38,126 nucleotides of DNA from positions 1 to 38,126 of the IMG/VR virus record IMGVR_UViG_3300029985_000088; one strand, given 5' to 3'. The DNA is from a virus. A program made the translations under genes and the position numbers. The notes under the pieces are model-generated. The model was given only the letters and a program-made list of their open reading frames with translations. It was not told the DNA's origin and did no database searches. This document shows positions 28,604 to 35,366 of this stretch, piece after piece; position 1 is the first letter of the stretch; each line of letters starts with the position of its first letter.

Positions 28604-28857
28604 TGCACGGCACTATTGAAGACAGACTTAGCGCATTAGAAAAGACCGTTAAAGAGGTCGATGATGCCGTGTACGGCCGGTGGGATACACACAACCGCAA
28701 GCGTTCAGCGGGTCTCTTAGAGCAGATCACCGCGCTGACGAATATAATGAAGTGGGCGATTGTACCGATGATGGTTGCGAATACGCTGCTTCAATTCGGC
28801 CTTAAAGACGCTATCCCGGCAGCAATGAAACTCGTGTCATTAGCCGTCGCGCGTTAG
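28603..28857 (+). CDS. XhlA/holin-like membrane-associated protein
   Basis: An 84-residue protein with an amphipathic coiled N-terminal helix (EDRLSALEKTVKEVDDAVYGRW) and a hydrophobic C-terminal part (MKWAIVPMMVANTLLQFGL and AAMKLVSLAVAR). A helical head followed by one or two hydrophobic segments near the C-terminus is the plan of small XhlA-type and other lysis accessory proteins. As the last gene of the late transcript it could be a holin or holin partner for the distant endolysin, but membrane helices can also occur in virion-linked proteins. It overlaps the end of the minus-strand sigma/HNH gene by 18 bases. Confidence 0.5.
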   Translation: MHGTIEDRLSALEKTVKEVDDAVYGRWDTHNRKRSAGLLEQITALTNIMKWAIVPMMVANTLLQFGLKDAIPAAMKLVSLAVAR

Positions 28858-29475
28858 GCGATGGTCCGGGTTCACGCAGGTAAGGTTCTTGCACGTACTA
28901 CGTAAACGACGCCCTGCGGGTACAGGTCCATACTTCTCTTCGTATAGGTGCTTTGCTGCAGGCACACGCTTACCTTTAACCTCTATGATCGGTGTCTTCT
29001 GGTAGTAACCGGACCATTCCCAGCAGCCTCGGTCATCCATCATCGGCTCTACGTTAAAGAACGCAAAAGACCGCTTGTTACGTCGTTGGGGCGTAGGCGG
29101 TTTTTTGTATTCACGTACAGACTCCACGGCCAGGAGTAGAGCTAGGGGTTCGTAATCATTATTCCCAATATACAAATCTAAATGCGTGTCGTTACTACGT
29201 TCGCCCTTGACGCCAGCATCGTAAGAATACGCCTGGTTGAGGAATTTCGCGTTGCCTGCATTCGACTTTAAATACAACTGATAAATACGCGACTTTACGG
29301 CCATGTAAACGAAGTAAGACTCTTTTATATTCTTCGTATTTTCGGGCATAGTCAGGAGAGCTATGACGCCCTCCTGGTAAAGATCGTCGAATGTGTACCC
29401 GGGTACGCGGTATTTATTAGCGACGCTTTTTACGAGTTGATAATAGCCTTCAATCGGTCGAGATAATGTGGTCAA
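28840..29475 (-). CDS. Sigma-70 region 2-like / HNH-like fusion protein
   Basis: A 211-residue protein with two recognisable halves. Residues about 8-75 match sigma region 2 of the SigH type: GYYQLVKSVANKYRVPG, the conserved FDDLYQEGVIALL, and YFVYMAVKSRIYQLYLKS. The next part (FLNQAYSYDAG, LDLYIGNNDYEPLALLL) follows the linker after region 2 in such sigmas. Region 4 is missing; in its place residues 140-211 resemble an HNH_3 domain: GCWEWSGYY, KRVPAAKHLYEEKYGPVPAG, then RSTCKNLTCVNPDHRL. The usual first His (xHxC) is Ser, while the N and last His remain, so nuclease activity is doubtful. As the last early gene it might help host RNA polymerase at late promoters. It starts inside the VRR-NUC gene (26-base overlap). 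Confidence 0.65.
   Translation of the reverse strand: MTTLSRPIEGYYQLVKSVANKYRVPGYTFDDLYQEGVIALLTMPENTKNIKESYFVYMAVKSRIYQLYLKSNAGNAKFLNQAYSYDAGVKGERSNDTHLDLYIGNNDYEPLALLLAVESVREYKKPPTPQRRNKRSFAFFNVEPMMDDRGCWEWSGYYQKTPIIEVKGKRVPAAKHLYEEKYGPVPAGRRLRSTCKNLTCVNPDHRLTRDG
29065..29106 (+). terminator. Candidate late-operon terminator inside the sigma/HNH gene
   Basis: AAAAGACCGC (29065-29074) can pair with GCGGTTTTTT (29097-29106) with one G-T wobble, and an inner TACG/CGTA pair (29079-29082 and 29092-29095) extends the structure. Read on the plus strand this gives a stem followed by T residues, about 240 bases past the last late gene. The stem is long-looped and lies in coding sequence of the other strand, so it may be chance. 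Confidence 0.3.
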
Positions 29476-29767
29476 GGTGCTGCTCCAAATCAGTTAAGCA
29501 AGATATTACCCAGTATTGCCCGCAAGCGTCCTGTACGTGCTCTTGAAAAGTAAGCTGGTTCTTTGTGCAACCGTGGTTCTTAGAGCGGTACGCGAGCGGT
29601 GTCTTACACTCAATGGCGATGTAATTGCCGTCGATGATTGCAATGATGTCGGCGATACCGGACTTTCCGTACATAGACACGGGGCTTGAATAAGCGTAAC
29701 AGAAAGGGACGGCTTTTAACCGCCCCAATACCGCTTTCTTTACCTTAGTCTCTTCGGTAGCTGCCAC
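29450..29767 (-). CDS. VRR-NUC domain nuclease
   Basis: A 105-residue small nuclease of the PD-(D/E)XK superfamily. The elements follow the VRR-NUC pattern: KSGIADIIAI with the first acidic residue D40, the strand YIAIECK with E53 and K55 as the E-x-K, and LTFQEHVQDACGQYWVI with Q75 in the helix after it. This size is typical for stand-alone phage VRR-NUC proteins, which are thought to resolve or cut branched DNA in replication and recombination. It starts at a GTG overlapping the TAG of the upstream gene by one base and its end overlaps the sigma/HNH start. Confidence 0.8.
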   Translation of the reverse strand: MAATEETKVKKAVLGRLKAVPFCYAYSSPVSMYGKSGIADIIAIIDGNYIAIECKTPLAYRSKNHGCTKNQLTFQEHVQDACGQYWVISCLTDLEQHLDHIISTD

Positions 29768-30288
29768 TACGCGTATTTCGCGGTTGCTGTAGCGGGCTTC
29801 GCTTCTGGGGAACCTAGCGGCATGAGGAAGGTTTCGTTGTACGTAACCGTGGTTTCTTCCAGGTCGCCGTGCTCGTTCGGCTTCATACGCTTCACCGGCT
29901 TACCGGCGACAACCTTAAAGCGGAAGTTCACACCCTTGAACGCGCGCGCTACTGCGCCACGAATTTCCGGTAAGGTTAATTCTGGGAGATCGTCTGGAAG
30001 TTTATCCAGGATGCCCAACGATTTTGCGTCACGCTTGAGTGCGGTGAACCCAGGTGAGAATTCTCCACCCTTTGACGTGTTGTACCATGCGAGGCGGTAC
30101 GTGACGGTATGCTCCGTGCCTGCGTCAGTGCCTTCCGTTAATTCGATAAGAAGGTAAATAATATCGACTGAATCTTTACCTTGAACCTCTTGAACGCGTG
30201 ATTCTACGTTAATTACCTTTGACTTGCCGTATTGACCGACCTCTAAACGTCCGCCGAAATCTAACACATCGCTGAGTTTACGTGACAT
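29767..30288 (-). CDS. Putative ssDNA-binding / replication protein
   Basis: A 173-residue protein with a beta-rich body: GRLEVGQYGKSKVINVESRVQEVQG, DIIYLLIELTEG, TEHTVTYRLAWYN, and VNFRFKVVAGKPVKRMKPNEHGDLEETTVTYNETF. A helical insertion lies at about 83-110 (GFTALKRDAKSLGILDKL, LTLPEIRGAVARAF). The pattern of a strand-rich core with a TxYRLAWYN element and a helix block resembles phage proteins that are placed next to RecA-like ATPases and function as ssDNA-binding partners. Its neighbours (ATPase, VRR-NUC) support a recombination or replication role. No exact family match is claimed. Confidence 0.55.
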   Translation of the reverse strand: MSRKLSDVLDFGGRLEVGQYGKSKVINVESRVQEVQGKDSVDIIYLLIELTEGTDAGTEHTVTYRLAWYNTSKGGEFSPGFTALKRDAKSLGILDKLPDDLPELTLPEIRGAVARAFKGVNFRFKVVAGKPVKRMKPNEHGDLEETTVTYNETFLMPLGSPEAKPATATAKYA

Positions 30289-30317: not shown

Positions 30318-30476
30318 CTAATCGCCGCTTTCGTAGTCGTGGAAATTATTCGCTTCGATGTCGAGCCAGTCCTCGCAATCGCCGCACTTGTCGCATCCGT
30401 ACGCTGTGCCTTCGTCATATTCTGGGATGTCTTCTTTCAGGAAGTCATCATCGTCTTCCTCCTCGTCATCGCCCAA
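30318..30476 (-). CDS. 52-residue acidic protein with CxxCxxC knuckle
   Basis: A short frame from a TTG at 30476 to a TAG at 30318-30320. The N-terminus is a run of Asp/Glu (GDDEEEDDDDFLKED), followed by GYGCDKCGDCEDW-type sequence, with Cys-x-x-Cys-x-x-Cys, and an acidic tail ending ESGD. AAGGA lies seven bases ahead of the TTG, a near-ideal ribosome site, and the frame overlaps the end of the ATPase gene by 11 bases, filling an otherwise empty gap of about 180 bases. The acidic chain may mimic DNA or bind the ATPase or single-strand binding protein; the cysteines may bind a metal. Both ideas are inference. Confidence 0.55.
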   Translation of the reverse strand: MGDDEEEDDDDFLKEDIPEYDEGTAYGCDKCGDCEDWLDIEANNFHDYESGD

Positions 30477-31245
30477 TTCCTAGTCCTTCTGGGTCCAGGT
30501 AATGAGATAGAGCGAAGGTCGTTTTCCCAGCCCCAGGGGGAGCGTAGCAGGTTATCCACGCCGGATCGTGCCCCAGAGTTTTTGCCAGTTTTGTCGTACT
30601 GGGGCGCGTGATGAGGTCGGGAAGATCGAACGAGTCTTCTAGGTCCATGTGTACCTTGGTGTAATAGTCCTCGGAAGGTTTAATTTGGAGGAGACGCTGA
30701 CCTACTGCGAGGAGGACGTTCCCTTCTTCATCAGTGACTTCATCATGGTTGATAGCGAGTCGGCAAACCAGGGATGAACTCCCCGTGAGAGACTTGCAGA
30801 GGTCGTCGTTGACGTCTGGTATACGGATTTTCGCAGACTTAGGGATGTTGGGATCGTACCCGCTTCGTTCGTGAGCGGTGACGATAATCCGGGCCCCCAT
30901 TGAACGAAAATTTTTAAGCCGACGCATGATGAGTGCTCCAGCGGCTCCGTAGATGTTACGCGTAACTGCATCAGTGACAAGCCGGTCTTTATCCTTCCAA
31001 TACGATTTCGTCATATCCGTGCCGAGTTTATAATCGGTGCGCGTCGTATCGGCGAGCATCGAGATGGTGTCGAGAATAACGAGGTCTCCGGGCTCAATAT
31101 CGGCGAGAAGGTCCTTCGAGATGTTGTCGAACTTTTCGTAGGATCCTACCTCGATCACGGTCAGTGTGTCTTTGTTTTTCGCGATGATCGAGTTAATTGA
31201 GTCAGTACCGTTCTGGTCAGAATTGAATAGCCAGGTTCTAGACAT
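30466..31245 (-). CDS. RecA/Sak4-like ATPase with circularly permuted P-loop order
   Basis: A 259-residue P-loop ATPase whose motifs are in reversed order along the chain. The N-terminus starts directly with what should be strand 2 (RTWLFNSDQNGTDS), then SYEKFDNISKDLL and Walker B GDLVILDT (D59) at residues 53-60, the sensor-type strand RIIVTAHE (119-126), and LLQIKPSEDYYTKVH. Walker A, APPGAGKTT (235-243, K241), comes only at the C-terminus after a linker. In normal Sak4-like proteins Walker A is first. A stop lies two codons ahead of the ATG, and the frame has no break, so the order is not caused by a wrong start. It probably binds ATP at ssDNA to promote annealing or strand exchange with the partner at 29767. 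Confidence 0.7.
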   Translation of the reverse strand: MSRTWLFNSDQNGTDSINSIIAKNKDTLTVIEVGSYEKFDNISKDLLADIEPGDLVILDTISMLADTTRTDYKLGTDMTKSYWKDKDRLVTDAVTRNIYGAAGALIMRRLKNFRSMGARIIVTAHERSGYDPNIPKSAKIRIPDVNDDLCKSLTGSSSLVCRLAINHDEVTDEEGNVLLAVGQRLLQIKPSEDYYTKVHMDLEDSFDLPDLITRPSTTKLAKTLGHDPAWITCYAPPGAGKTTFALSHYLDPEGLGIGR

Positions 31246-31372
31246 AGGTCACCTTTTTACAATCCGCACATTCCTCATAAACGAGTTTTTCTCCGCCCAA
31301 ATAAATTTTCCAAACGCGGGTACACTTGTGGCGCACTATTTTGAAGTACCAGTTCTTGATTGCATCAAGCAT
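31238..31372 (-). CDS. 44-residue Cys-containing small protein
   Basis: A short frame that exactly fills the gap between ThyX and the ATPase. It starts at an ATG eight bases inside the ThyX end and stops eight bases inside the ATPase start. The product reads MLDAIKNWYFKIVRHKC, a central WKIYLGGEKLVYEEC and a final ADCKKVTYV, with Cys at residues 17, 35 and 38, giving H-x-C and C-x-x-C pairs of a small zinc ribbon. Short overlaps on both sides argue for translational coupling. Function unknown; a DNA-binding accessory to the ATPase is possible. Confidence 0.55.
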   Translation of the reverse strand: MLDAIKNWYFKIVRHKCTRVWKIYLGGEKLVYEECADCKKVTYV

Positions 31373-32045
31373 AATCGTGCGTCCTCAGGGCTTCCCAAGA
31401 CTTTGGAAAAAGCTGACTACATATGCTACCCAAAGATTCAGCGTAGACACTAATTTCATATTGTGCTCCATCCTTCGTACGTTGTTTGTAAATACGCCAT
31501 GCTGCGTATAGTGACATCGTGCTTATCCAAGTGGTGTAGGTCGCTAATGGCAGTACGTCGCGGGCTTGCTCGGTAGCTACGCCATTCCTCAGTAGGAATG
31601 AATAAAGCGTGTGCGCTTGTTTATACGAGTGCTCTACGCGTTCTTTCCAAGCCTCGTTGCCTGTAACGTCCATGAAGCCTTCGCTGCCCTGCTTCTTGTC
31701 CTTGGATTGTAACCGAAGCCGATCCGGGATATAGAATTCGGGTTCAATTTTCACGTAGCGTGTAGATTCTGAATTATTGTTGACGCCTACAGAGTGCTTC
31801 TCCCACTGGCGCTGCACAGAGATAGGCGCGCGTATACGCACATTCAATACAGCGTGTGCAAACGGGCTCCAATGATGATGCTTAGCCAAATAATCAATGA
31901 GCCTAATGTCGCCTGCTGAAAGTTCGGTACTGCGCTTGTCAAAAGACACACGAGCAGCATTAACAACACTGAGATCAGACCCCATGTGGTCCACATATTC
32001 TAAATACCCTTTATCTAAGCAGTTAATCTTCTCGTTGAGGATCAA
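31365..32045 (-). CDS. thyX: Flavin-dependent thymidylate synthase
   Basis: A 226-residue ThyX that makes dTMP from dUMP using FAD, NADPH and methylenetetrahydrofolate. Recognisable blocks are VNAARVSFDKR (29-38), LAKHHHWSPFAHAVLNVRIRAPISVQRQW (53-81) and, near the C-terminus, RTKDGAQYEIS with ESLGSICSQLFPKSW. The signature RHRx7S region reads W81-EKHSVGVNNNSESTRY: the RHR is replaced by KHS and there appears to be one extra residue before the last Ser. This may reflect a divergent phage branch or a changed active site. The start is a TTG behind GAGAGGGA and overlaps the nuclease gene end by 23 bases. It would supply dTMP for replication independent of host ThyA. Confidence 0.85.
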   Translation of the reverse strand: MILNEKINCLDKGYLEYVDHMGSDLSVVNAARVSFDKRSTELSAGDIRLIDYLAKHHHWSPFAHAVLNVRIRAPISVQRQWEKHSVGVNNNSESTRYVKIEPEFYIPDRLRLQSKDKKQGSEGFMDVTGNEAWKERVEHSYKQAHTLYSFLLRNGVATEQARDVLPLATYTTWISTMSLYAAWRIYKQRTKDGAQYEISVYAESLGSICSQLFPKSWEALRTHDYA

Positions 32046-32838
32046 AGATCGTCCCTCTCGTGTTAGGTTTAAAGTTTGTAAATGAAGGTTGTTTCTCGTA
32101 ATCTTGGTTGCACAAGCCCTTCACGGGGCAGTGTCCGCACGAGTTAAAGTCGAAACCTCGGAGATACGTACGTCTATAGTTCGGGAATTGGCTACGTACT
32201 TTCGTTACAATCTCGTCGATTCGGTCTACCGTATCTGCCCACACTTCTTCGAGTTCTGCTCGGGACAACACCGTAACTTGATCGAAATAACACTCTTGAG
32301 GTTGCCACACTCCTCCTGCTTTGTCTTTTGGCACTAAGGGGGCAGTGGTGCGTAGGTGTTTGTGGACGAACCGGAATTTCCCCACTTCGGGGAATAACTG
32401 CGCGACGGCTGCTAGGTACGTGTTTGTCTGGAAATCTAAGTCGGTATCGAGAGATGGCATTTTCGAAAATGATTTCCAATCCCAAACGTCTACAATTTGT
32501 TTTTCGTAATTGCGTGTTATCACGTCGGGCGTGAATGTCAGCTCTACATCCTCGTACACACGCACAGACAGGGTTTGCTCGACGTGCGTGGGTTTCTCTT
32601 TGATCGGGTTGTGCTTCAAGTACGTACTGACGAGGACGCCCTCTTCAGTCGTCCAGTCCATTTCGTTAGCATTGCCGGTTAAATACATCTCGAAGTATTT
32701 GTGAATGCGTGTACCCTTTTCGAGTGCCTCTCCGTCCGGTTTATCGTCCACAATACCTTTAATGTATTGCAGCTCCCCTTTTTTCTCACAGCGTATAAAT
32801 GTTTGGAGGGCTGACATCGAAATTGAAATGGGCTTCAT
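32023..32838 (-). CDS. PD-(D/E)XK nuclease with Fe-S cluster cysteines (Cas4/AddB-like)
   Basis: A 271-residue exonuclease-type protein. The N-terminal SISMSALQTFIRCEKKGELQYIKG carries C17, the KGTRIHKYFE helix has H46, the core has TPDVI (D105) and VDVWDWKSF (D120/K122) as the D...DxK active site, and FQTNTYLAAV (Q137 and Y141) follows. The C-terminus has SCGHCPVKGLC with C234, C237 and C243, which with C17 form the four-cysteine pattern of the Fe-S-stabilised Cas4/AddB nucleases. Phage nucleases of this kind process DNA ends in replication or recombination with RecA-like ATPases. It sits in the replication operon, with ThyX overlapping its end. Confidence 0.85.
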   Translation of the reverse strand: MKPISISMSALQTFIRCEKKGELQYIKGIVDDKPDGEALEKGTRIHKYFEMYLTGNANEMDWTTEEGVLVSTYLKHNPIKEKPTHVEQTLSVRVYEDVELTFTPDVITRNYEKQIVDVWDWKSFSKMPSLDTDLDFQTNTYLAAVAQLFPEVGKFRFVHKHLRTTAPLVPKDKAGGVWQPQECYFDQVTVLSRAELEEVWADTVDRIDEIVTKVRSQFPNYRRTYLRGFDFNSCGHCPVKGLCNQDYEKQPSFTNFKPNTRGTIFDPQRED

Positions 32839-32844
32839 AGAGGG

Positions 32845-33171
32845 TTATTCCTCTGCTCCAGAGCCACTATCCGCACCAGTAGGGCCGATAGCATTTTCGC
32901 TGTTAGCTTCTGGGCTTCCGCGAGGTGGCTTAACGCGTCGATTAACGGGTCCTTCTGTTTTTCCTGCGGATTCTGCATGCGTTTTCTCCACGAAGTCGTT
33001 CATTTGTGTTTCGAGTTTGGTTAAGAGGCCGTAAAGCTCTAACCCTAAATTTATGGCGGTGAGTAAGTCACGAGCGTCAACGAATGTCGTGCCGCTCCCG
33101 CGCATACGCTGACTGACGTTGTGGAGTTTGTCTCGGATTTGGTCGGCTGCTTCCATTGGTAACATTTCCAT
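32845..33171 (-). CDS. Small helical protein overlapping the polymerase end
   Basis: A 108-residue protein. Its first 65 residues are helical (ADQIRDKLHNVSQRMRG, DLLTAINLGLELYGLLTKLETQMNDFVEK), and the remainder is a disordered Lys/Gly/Glu-rich tail. Three in-frame ATGs (33171, 33165, 33156) make the start uncertain and no clear ribosome site is seen. The gene overlaps the end of the DNA polymerase gene by up to 121 bases in another frame, and the polymerase part of the overlap is past the conserved domain. Its position suggests a replication accessory, but no family is recognised. Confidence 0.5.
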   Translation of the reverse strand: MEMLPMEAADQIRDKLHNVSQRMRGSGTTFVDARDLLTAINLGLELYGLLTKLETQMNDFVEKTHAESAGKTEGPVNRRVKPPRGSPEANSENAIGPTGADSGSGAEE

Positions 33172-35366
33172 TCAGGCTTGGCGCGTAGTGGGACGGTGAG
33201 ATCTATGTTGAATTTCTCTTTCAACGCAATCCGTGGGTACTCCTGCATAATATACATGATATTAGGAAGCGCGTCTTCCATTTCTTGTAAAGACTTAAAC
33301 TCGAAGGAGAACGAATCATGGACAAAATTCACCAGTGGGTAATCGTGGCGATCTAATTCGACAAGGGTGAGTAATGCAATGTCAGCAGCGAATCCCTGTA
33401 CTTTAACGTTGACGGCTTCACGAAGCGCATTGCCCTTCTTCTTCCACGACAAAGCCTTAAAGTCTCCGTAATTGCGGCGACGCCCAGTTATAGTTTCAAC
33501 AAAACTATTTTTCTCTAGTTCAGACTTAGTGAGATTGTAGAAAGGCACAAAACCTGGAAAATTTCGATGCCAGGATTCGTGAATAGAATCGCACACCTGT
33601 AAATCAAGGTTAAGTCCATAGCCTGCGGCGAAGTCCTTCATAGTCATTGCGTTACCGCAGAATAGCTGAGAAAAATTCGCAGACTTTGCAGTCTGGCGCT
33701 CTTCCTTCGTCACTTCCGATTCTAACTTGCGATAGAACAATGCAGCGAAGTATTGGTGCGGATCCCAGTCGGGGTTCTCCGCGAATCTCTTGAGAATGCC
33801 GTCTTCGTTCGCTAGGAAGGCAGCGAGTCGGAATTCGATGGCGTCCCAGTCGATGGTGAGTAGTACGCATCCAGGCGGTGCCGCGAAGAAGTCCTTAAGT
33901 TCACGATCCAGGTTCTGCGTATTCTGATTACGTGCAGAGGTGCGGCCAGTAACGGTGGTAATGACGCTAAACTCGGGATGTACTCGACCGTCCCCTTCCA
34001 GTACGATGCGTGCATAATTCTCCACGTACGTGTTAAGTCTCTTTGCGAGTCCACGATATTCCAGTACCAGATGAGCGAGGGGATCATCTAAACCCCCTAA
34101 GACTTCGGAGGACGTGGAGTAGTTGCCTTTTTCCGACATAGGCAAGCGGTGTCCTCGCTCGGTGAAGTAGGCTCCAAGTTGTTTGGTACTTCCAACATTG
34201 AAAGTCTCTCCGACAATCTCTCGAATTTTCCCATTAACCTCCCCAAGTCGTGTATTAGTAGCCTCTCGGACTTGTTCCACTGCTCCTTTTGAAATAAACA
34301 TTCCGCGATCAGACATGCGACTAAGAGCAATGTGAGCAGGCTTAAGGATATGGTCATAGATAGCAATACGATCACCGAGGATCTCCAATTCTTTTTTGTA
34401 CAGGTTGTAGGTATGGATTACGTCACGGGCGTTGTACGCAGCGAACTCCGGCGTTCCTAATGGGTGTTCGAACTGGTCTTTCCAGCCTTTGACCCCGAGA
34501 TGCTTAACAGAAAGTGATTCCAGTCCCTTAGATTGAGTTTCGTCTTCGAGGTACGCGAGTACCATTGTATCTTCTCCCAGTGGGAAATCCTCAACACCCG
34601 CAAGTCTTGTGCGAGGTACATCAAAGTTCCACGAGTTGTGCCCGACACTAGTAAAGGAATTCTCCGATAATTTAAGTCGTAGTTTATCAGCAAGCTTAAA
34701 TGCAGAGGATTTAGTTGGGCGAGAAACGTAACAGAAATTGGCTCCTGCGACGGCACATTGGGTGGCCGTTTCTGTATAAGCCCCTTGTCCATCAATGGTT
34801 TCAATATCGTATGAATATACATCGCTATCCGGTAATTCTTGCCCATCCCACCACTCCCACTCAATTACGTCATCTGCTTTTGATTTGTTCGTAAACTTCC
34901 GAACGTCTTGAATAATTACTTTCAGATAATTAGGGTTGCCTAGAGCATCGAGGATGCCCCAGGATACTCCGGCGGTTCTTCCGGTAATTCCGTATTCTTT
35001 ATTTGGAGAGAACTCCTGTCCCCGAGAAGACTTAATATTAGATTTTCGTAGGACACGCTGCGAAGATTCTTTTCCAAGTAAAAGAATAATTTCTTTTTGT
35101 TCAAGTAAGCCTTGGAGTATGTGTGTAGGGCGTCTTCCTTGTCCTGTACAGCCCGCAACAGATGCGAAAGTGCAGTCATCTCGCTGGAGTCCAGCGCCCT
35201 CAAGAATCTTTGTAAGTACTCTGCCGTATCGTCCTGAGAAGAATGTGTCATTGTAGTCGGCCTCCGTAGGTAGTTCGCTGAGTAGGAAAAGAATAGGGCC
35301 GCTGCCCTCGATTAACGGAGCCGTACGCAGGGAACCGCACACCGCGCCGCAGTACTGGCAAATCAT
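33051..35366 (-). CDS. DNA polymerase, family A, with N-terminal UDG-like domain
   Basis: A 771-residue replicative polymerase. Residues about 1-160 resemble a family 4 uracil-DNA glycosylase: MICQYCGAVCG, GSGPILFLLSE, FFSGRYGRVLTKILEGAGLQRDDCTFASVAGCTGQGRRPT and EIILLLGKES, but the catalytic GEAPG block is degenerate. The 3'-5' exonuclease follows with SYDIET (D187/E189), GHNSWNFD (N244/D249) and YNARD (Y311/D315). The polymerase has motif A LTIDWDAIEFR (D506), motif B RQTAKSANFSQLF (R557/K561/F565) and motif C FVHDSFSF, where the usual HDE is HDS (H683/D684/S685). The conserved chain ends near PLRAKPEWKCYQW; the last about 30 residues overlap the next gene. It starts by overlapping the diphosphohydrolase stop (ATGA). 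Confidence 0.92.
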   Translation of the reverse strand: MICQYCGAVCGSLRTAPLIEGSGPILFLLSELPTEADYNDTFFSGRYGRVLTKILEGAGLQRDDCTFASVAGCTGQGRRPTHILQGLLEQKEIILLLGKESSQRVLRKSNIKSSRGQEFSPNKEYGITGRTAGVSWGILDALGNPNYLKVIIQDVRKFTNKSKADDVIEWEWWDGQELPDSDVYSYDIETIDGQGAYTETATQCAVAGANFCYVSRPTKSSAFKLADKLRLKLSENSFTSVGHNSWNFDVPRTRLAGVEDFPLGEDTMVLAYLEDETQSKGLESLSVKHLGVKGWKDQFEHPLGTPEFAAYNARDVIHTYNLYKKELEILGDRIAIYDHILKPAHIALSRMSDRGMFISKGAVEQVREATNTRLGEVNGKIREIVGETFNVGSTKQLGAYFTERGHRLPMSEKGNYSTSSEVLGGLDDPLAHLVLEYRGLAKRLNTYVENYARIVLEGDGRVHPEFSVITTVTGRTSARNQNTQNLDRELKDFFAAPPGCVLLTIDWDAIEFRLAAFLANEDGILKRFAENPDWDPHQYFAALFYRKLESEVTKEERQTAKSANFSQLFCGNAMTMKDFAAGYGLNLDLQVCDSIHESWHRNFPGFVPFYNLTKSELEKNSFVETITGRRRNYGDFKALSWKKKGNALREAVNVKVQGFAADIALLTLVELDRHDYPLVNFVHDSFSFEFKSLQEMEDALPNIMYIMQEYPRIALKEKFNIDLTVPLRAKPEWKCYQWKQPTKSETNSTTSVSVCAGAARHSLTLVTYSPP

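Follow-up and report, generated by a model that had tools for sequence, protein, structure and literature searches.

Evidence for a natural circular permutation in a Sak4-type recombination ATPase of uncultivated phages

Introduction

Can a recombination ATPase with a RecA core be encoded with its P-loop at the far end of the chain? This question was raised by a gene in a virus record from IMG/VR (IMGVR_UViG_3300029985_000088), of which positions 1 to 38,126 were analysed; this 38,126-nucleotide stretch is referred to as the window. The initial annotation, made from the letters alone, had noticed that a RecA/Sak4-like protein carries its Walker B motif near the N-terminus and its Walker A motif near the C-terminus, and had interpreted this as a circular permutation, an interpretation that is supported by the analysis described here. 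The reading that we prefer, with a probability of roughly 0.82, is that the gene encodes a Sak4-type recombination ATPase, consisting of a RecA/RAD51 core without accessory domains, that has undergone a natural circular permutation; activity of the protein has not been shown.

A single reading frame with reversed Walker motifs

The open reading frame lies on the minus strand and runs from 31245 down to 30466, a strand that had not been given before. Its translation bears out that the Walker B motif GDLVILDT, with D59, and the Walker A motif APPGAGKTT, with K241, are located in one uninterrupted frame. Along the protein, the order of elements is beta2, Walker B (D59), the AHE sensor (H125-E126), the usual C-terminal motif of Sak4 (RPSTTKL), beta1-P-loop-alpha1, and then the end of the chain. 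A Shine-Dalgarno-like GGTG stretch is present 5' of the ATG. The gene and its parts are as follows.

30466..31245, minus strand: permuted Sak4-like ATPase gene, 259 aa, ATG start and TGA stop, assigned on a phrog_124 match and seven homologues
31216..31218, minus strand: D10, the acid that ends strand beta2, invariant in 8/8 members of the alignment
31066..31089, minus strand: Walker B strand GDLVILDT, residues 53-60, with D59, read from the translation; D59 is invariant in the alignment
30865..30876, minus strand: sensor motif AHER, residues 124-127, equivalent in the alignments to AH[DE] of canonical Sak4
30562..30603, minus strand: junction, residues 215-228, where P[TS]xxKL is joined to the region before beta1, placed by comparison with canonical C-termini and by a rotation optimum at 224-230
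30496..30558, minus strand: C-terminal beta1-P-loop-alpha1, residues 230-250, APPGAGKTT with K241, placed by phrog_124 positions 40-62 and by conservation

D10 is inferred to be the counterpart of the RecA-like catalytic acid, which in RecA itself is E96.

Profile matches and rotation of the sequence

The Sak4 profile phrog_124 matched the window protein in two parts. Its positions 66-248 aligned with residues 4-212 (E 5e-21), and the earlier profile positions 40-62 aligned with the C-terminal 46 aa (E 0.013). The motif order is thus reversed relative to the Sak4 family, and this match in two parts, together with the seven divergent homologues described below, shows that the permuted motif pattern is not due to chance. 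For the related proteins L007, L011, L013 and L023, introduced below, the phrog_124 E values ranged from 1e-13 to 7e-17.

If the protein were permuted, swapping its halves should improve the match to Sak4 or RecA profiles, as the initial annotation had predicted, and this is what we observed. With phrog_124, a score of 76.5 bits in two pieces became 82.9 bits in one piece, and with Pfam AAA_24 the score rose from 43.1 to 48.9 bits. We also built a canonical-only Sak4 profile from 16 canonical proteins and scored each permuted protein against it in all possible rotations. The score of the window protein increased from 63.4 to 74.9 bits, with an optimum at the proposed junction, since the best rotations start at residues 224-230 of 259, just ahead of beta1. 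Rotation raised the best single-domain score by 7 to 21 bits in 7/8 permuted members, and in six of these seven the optimum was a few residues from beta1, the range being broader (193-221) in L026. In the remaining member, L013, rotation gave no single-domain gain, which is perhaps due to the insertion in this protein; its P-loop half did match on its own. No GTPase family was detected in Pfam and NCBIfam scans, in which the matches were to AAA_24, phage_P_loop or short P-loop entries. A sequence search of the PDB gave mostly P-loop matches; the solved structure of a Sak4, 8rc5, was matched once and weakly.

Homologues with the same order

Homologues sharing the same order would lend weight to the permutation, and seven further IMG/VR contigs were found to encode the permuted order in one open frame. 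These relatives came from alignment-based scans of viral contigs and from the use of the polymerase gene as bait: L007, which is 37% identical to the window protein, has the same order and ends in the C-terminal residues IYGSYGSGKSTLATSELR, was recovered in an alignment-based scan, and L011, L013, L023, L026, L027 and L059 with the DNA polymerase bait and further Sak4 scans. The seven proteins are 32-38% identical to the window protein. No close relative came from scans with the single protein in viral and genome collections, from tblastn against phages and plasmids, or from an alignment-based scan of genome_contigs. The permuted gene was not found in any cultured phage or plasmid searched and has so far been seen only in uncultivated phages.

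The members are 250-274 aa long, comprise only the RecA core and contain both Walker A and Walker B. All eight chains begin at beta2 and carry Walker A after Walker B, with a P-loop that starts 16 to 30 residues before the C-terminus. This is against the usual Sak4 order (which is not a formal criterion), and because the reversal is present in 8/8 members, we class these proteins as a Sak4 variant by descent and not as ordinary members. A whole-record search with phrog_124 found both halves in one ORF, in the permuted order, in three of the related records (G002, G003 and G006); the same search detected no second, canonical Sak4 in the seven related records, and the window contains no second Sak4 either. 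With a profile of the permuted family, exactly one full-length copy was found in each of the seven.

One alternative is that the reversed order is an artefact, produced by assembly or by a frameshift from a normal sak4 gene. Apart from the fact that the source is a metagenome-type viral contig, nothing speaks for this, and an assembly error or a split gene is ruled out by seven contigs whose proteins are 32-38% identical to that of the window and show the same order in one frame. Moreover, in several contigs the Cas4-type exonuclease gene abuts or overlaps the start of the Sak4 gene, so that no P-loop half can be hidden upstream. We therefore consider an artefact hardly conceivable.

In two of the related records, L013 (9685) and L059 (5605), there is no in-frame ATG, GTG or TTG near the conserved N-terminus, and the gene likely starts at ATT; GGAG is found shortly upstream of the putative ATT start in L013. 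Another record, L025 (IMGVR_UViG_3300041809_000401), contains no Sak4, although its polymerase is 43% identical to that of the window. It has no recognisable Cas4 exonuclease beside the polymerase, which is followed by a different P-loop protein (GPAGTGKT, in a frame of 227 aa).

Cut point, conservation and descent

That the chain had been opened between alpha1 and beta2 and its old ends joined was initially an inference; it is directly visible in the alignment with canonical Sak4. In canonical Sak4 the P-loop lies near the N-terminus (16/16 aligned proteins), whereas in the permuted form beta1-P-loop-alpha1 is C-terminal and the N-terminal tail of the canonical proteins is absent; every member has its new N-terminus where beta2 begins. 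Many canonical C-termini carry the motif P[TS]xx[KR]L, for example ARPTIAKLVRL in Curtobacterium phage Shrew and KQPSIGRLNQLLGW in Microbacterium phage Nucci. In the permuted proteins this motif is kept as P[TS]xxKL (RPSTTKLAKTLG in the window, NPTLPKLYEHLG in L007), and beta1 and the P-loop follow directly after it. The two halves are exactly complementary: nothing has been lost or doubled save the variable N-terminal tail.

This complementarity bears on the origin of the C-terminal part. A beta1-P-loop-alpha1 unit from another ATPase might have been fused to the C-terminus of an ancestral Sak4 whose own N-terminal P-loop had been lost. It is true that for the fragment, which is only 30-45 aa long, the matches to several P-loop families are about as good as that to Sak4, so that its Sak4 origin rests on position and complementarity. 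The canonical-only profile nevertheless detected the isolated fragment in 8/8 members, at profile positions 28-56 and with E values between 2e-7 and 3e-5 when the eight fragments were searched, and the two halves, as noted, are exactly complementary. We regard such a fusion as quite unlikely.

A different possibility is a vestigial C-terminal P-loop, with the N-terminal 214 residues functioning without ATP. In PA73 Sak4, a mutant in Walker A retained some recombineering activity (reported in PMC5928155), which would be compatible with this. The conservation pattern argues against it: no other part of the protein is as well conserved as beta1-P-loop-alpha1, which has a mean pairwise identity of 51% versus 37% for the core, and G238, G240 and K241 are, like D59, D10, H125 and E126, invariant in the alignment of the eight divergent members. 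This makes a vestigial P-loop very unlikely.

In a maximum-likelihood tree of the eight permuted and 16 canonical Sak4 proteins, the permuted proteins formed one group with a support of 100/98, which fits a single origin. The permutation may thus go back to one event in the ancestor of this phage clade. By inference, the simplest route would be a tandem duplication of sak4, after which the first copy lost its 5' part and the second copy its 3' part.

Structure model and the ATP site

An AlphaFold2 model built with five sequences had a mean pLDDT of 68.1 and a pTM of 0.69. Its elements are arranged as one would expect of a RecA core that begins at beta2, ending with beta1 (231-233) and alpha1 (241-250). 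Structure comparison retrieved RAD51 (Z 9.3), RadA (Z about 8) and other recombinase cores, and comparison with the solved Sak4 (8rc5) gave a Z of 8.0; RAD51/RadA cores were the best structural matches. RAD51 and RadA have the canonical motif order and further domains, unlike the permuted Sak4. In the comparison, residue 1 of the model aligned to RAD51 residue 154, which lies after the RAD51 P-loop helix. Some unrelated chains also reached a Z of about 8, and the structural Z values are thus modest.

Around the P-loop the pLDDT was only about 59-70 in this model, and a run with eight sequences was poorer (mean 61.3), with a lower confidence at the P-loop as well. Because of this low confidence, docking of the P-loop beside Walker B is not demonstrated, and the fold searches are no test of it, since a sequential structure aligner is blind to a permuted match. 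That the terminal P-loop docks into the ATP site, in cis or in trans, is therefore inferred and not shown. In the circularly permuted Sak4 that we favour, the C-terminal beta1-alpha1 unit would pack back into its usual sheet position in its own chain; K241 and T242 would hold the ATP phosphates, D59 would coordinate magnesium, and D10 and H125 would act as catalytic acid and sensor, respectively.

Docking in trans has to be weighed here as well. RAD51-like proteins bind ATP at protomer interfaces, and the C-terminal beta1-P-loop-alpha1 unit could be swapped into the neighbouring protomer of a filament, which would make the ATP site a product of two chains and oligomerisation obligatory. Canonical Sak4 does form filaments (PMC11846896), and in the model the linker that leads from the last strand to beta1 contains a separate helix (217-224) that could bridge chains. 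This linker is short, however, and the known permuted P-loop GTPases dock in cis, and we find such a domain swap unlikely. The broader proposition, that a stable, inherited permutation with its own phage lineage uses the P-loop, the part that the ribosome makes last, to complete the ATP site of a neighbour, also seems rather unlikely. If docking in trans were true, ATP binding and filament assembly would be coupled in a new way.

Comparison with known permuted proteins

Natural circular permutation with all motifs kept has been described for P-loop GTPases, namely the YRG family (YjeQ/RsgA, YlqF and YqeH) and cpRAS (PMC2430557). In these GTPases the motifs are ordered G4-G5-G1-G2-G3 or G3-G4-G5-G1-G2. 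The permuted Sak4 differs from them in being a RecA-fold ATPase with another cut point: its chain is opened immediately behind the P-loop helix, which leaves the P-loop unit in last place, whereas YRG and cpRAS proteins are cut elsewhere. The initial annotation knew of no permuted phage recombination ATPase, and our literature search agrees with this, since the precedents are GTPases only. The search covered permutation in Sak4, RecA, Rad51 and P-loop ATPases and found none outside GTPases; subscription journals were poorly covered, and this is not proof of absence. Apparently, no natural circular permutation had been noted before in a RecA-type recombinase, and the protein is best called Sak4-type by descent, with a new chain topology.

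As a conserved example, the family shows that selection can maintain a chain with its cut immediately behind the P-loop helix. It provides a natural test of RecA-core folding and of the freedom with which a core enzyme can be rewired, and bears both on whether completion in trans is possible for ATP sites at filament interfaces and on how new topologies arise among phage recombination genes. It is also a warning that profile-based annotation will miss or split permuted genes.

Gene neighbourhood and likely function

The features around the gene, all on the minus strand, are the following.

33051..35366, minus strand: family A DNA polymerase gene, same module
32023..32838, minus strand: Cas4-type PD-(D/E)XK exonuclease gene (Pfam PDDEXK_1 5e-14; phrog_1218 3e-20)
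31238..31372, minus strand: small Cys-containing ORF directly upstream, its stop overlapping the Sak4 start; no P-loop in its translation
30318..30476, minus strand: small acidic CxxC ORF with a TTG start, overlapping the Sak4 stop; its translation is not Sak4-like
29767..30288, minus strand: SSB-like gene in the slot of the Sak4 partner, assigned by position and resemblance only
29450..29767, minus strand: VRR-NUC/Hjc-like nuclease gene (phrog_93 E 2e-10; the Hjc match is weak)

The TAG of the short upstream ORF overlaps the ATG of the permuted gene (ATGTCTAG), and the overlap of small Cys ORFs with both its start and its stop suggests translational coupling. The order polymerase A, Cas4-type exonuclease, permuted Sak4 is kept in the window and in 7/7 other contigs. 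A VRR-NUC-type gene then follows in five of these seven; the L007 contig ends first, and in L059 no such gene was detected after the permuted Sak4. The SSB-like gene at 29767..30288 has no Pfam or significant PHROG match; a gene of this kind, judged by position only, comes after the permuted Sak4 in the related contigs where this could be read.

In cultured phages, including Curtobacterium phage Shrew, PMBT14 and MW202455, the same slot is filled by canonical Sak4, and both forms share the same neighbourhood, with a Cas4-type exonuclease before and an SSB-like gene after. In Curtobacterium phage Shrew, the order is DNA polymerase I, Cas4 family exonuclease, ASCE ATPase, SBB protein and VRR-Nuc. 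The position of the SSB-like gene is thus held by the SBB protein in this phage, and by a DUF669 protein in CRP-902 and bajarodcaudo virus 5.

Canonical Sak4 (PHROG 124), as in HK620 and in phage 52A (PDB 8RC5), has its RecA-core motifs and a C-terminal motif in common with the permuted form. The HK620 protein shows ATP-dependent binding and annealing of single-stranded DNA that is stimulated by the cognate SSB (PMC5928155), and the phage 52A protein forms RAD51-like filaments with ATP-gamma-S (PMC11846896). The shared gene slot and the retained catalytic residues point to a Sak4-like function, and most likely the permuted protein acts like canonical Sak4 in binding and annealing single-stranded DNA, a function that is inferred. 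As in other Sak4 proteins, ATP would drive a filament-type assembly on single-stranded DNA and annealing, in concert with the products of the adjacent SSB-like and Cas4-type exonuclease genes.

Two further genes were noted in this part of the window. A gene for ThyX, the FAD-dependent thymidylate synthase (31365-32045, minus strand), lies between the exonuclease gene and the permuted Sak4; no ThyX was detected at the corresponding place in the related contigs. At 28840-29475 (minus strand), one chain combines a sigma-70 region 2-like N-terminus (Pfam E 2e-7) with an HNH endonuclease-like C-terminus (PHROG E 7e-12).
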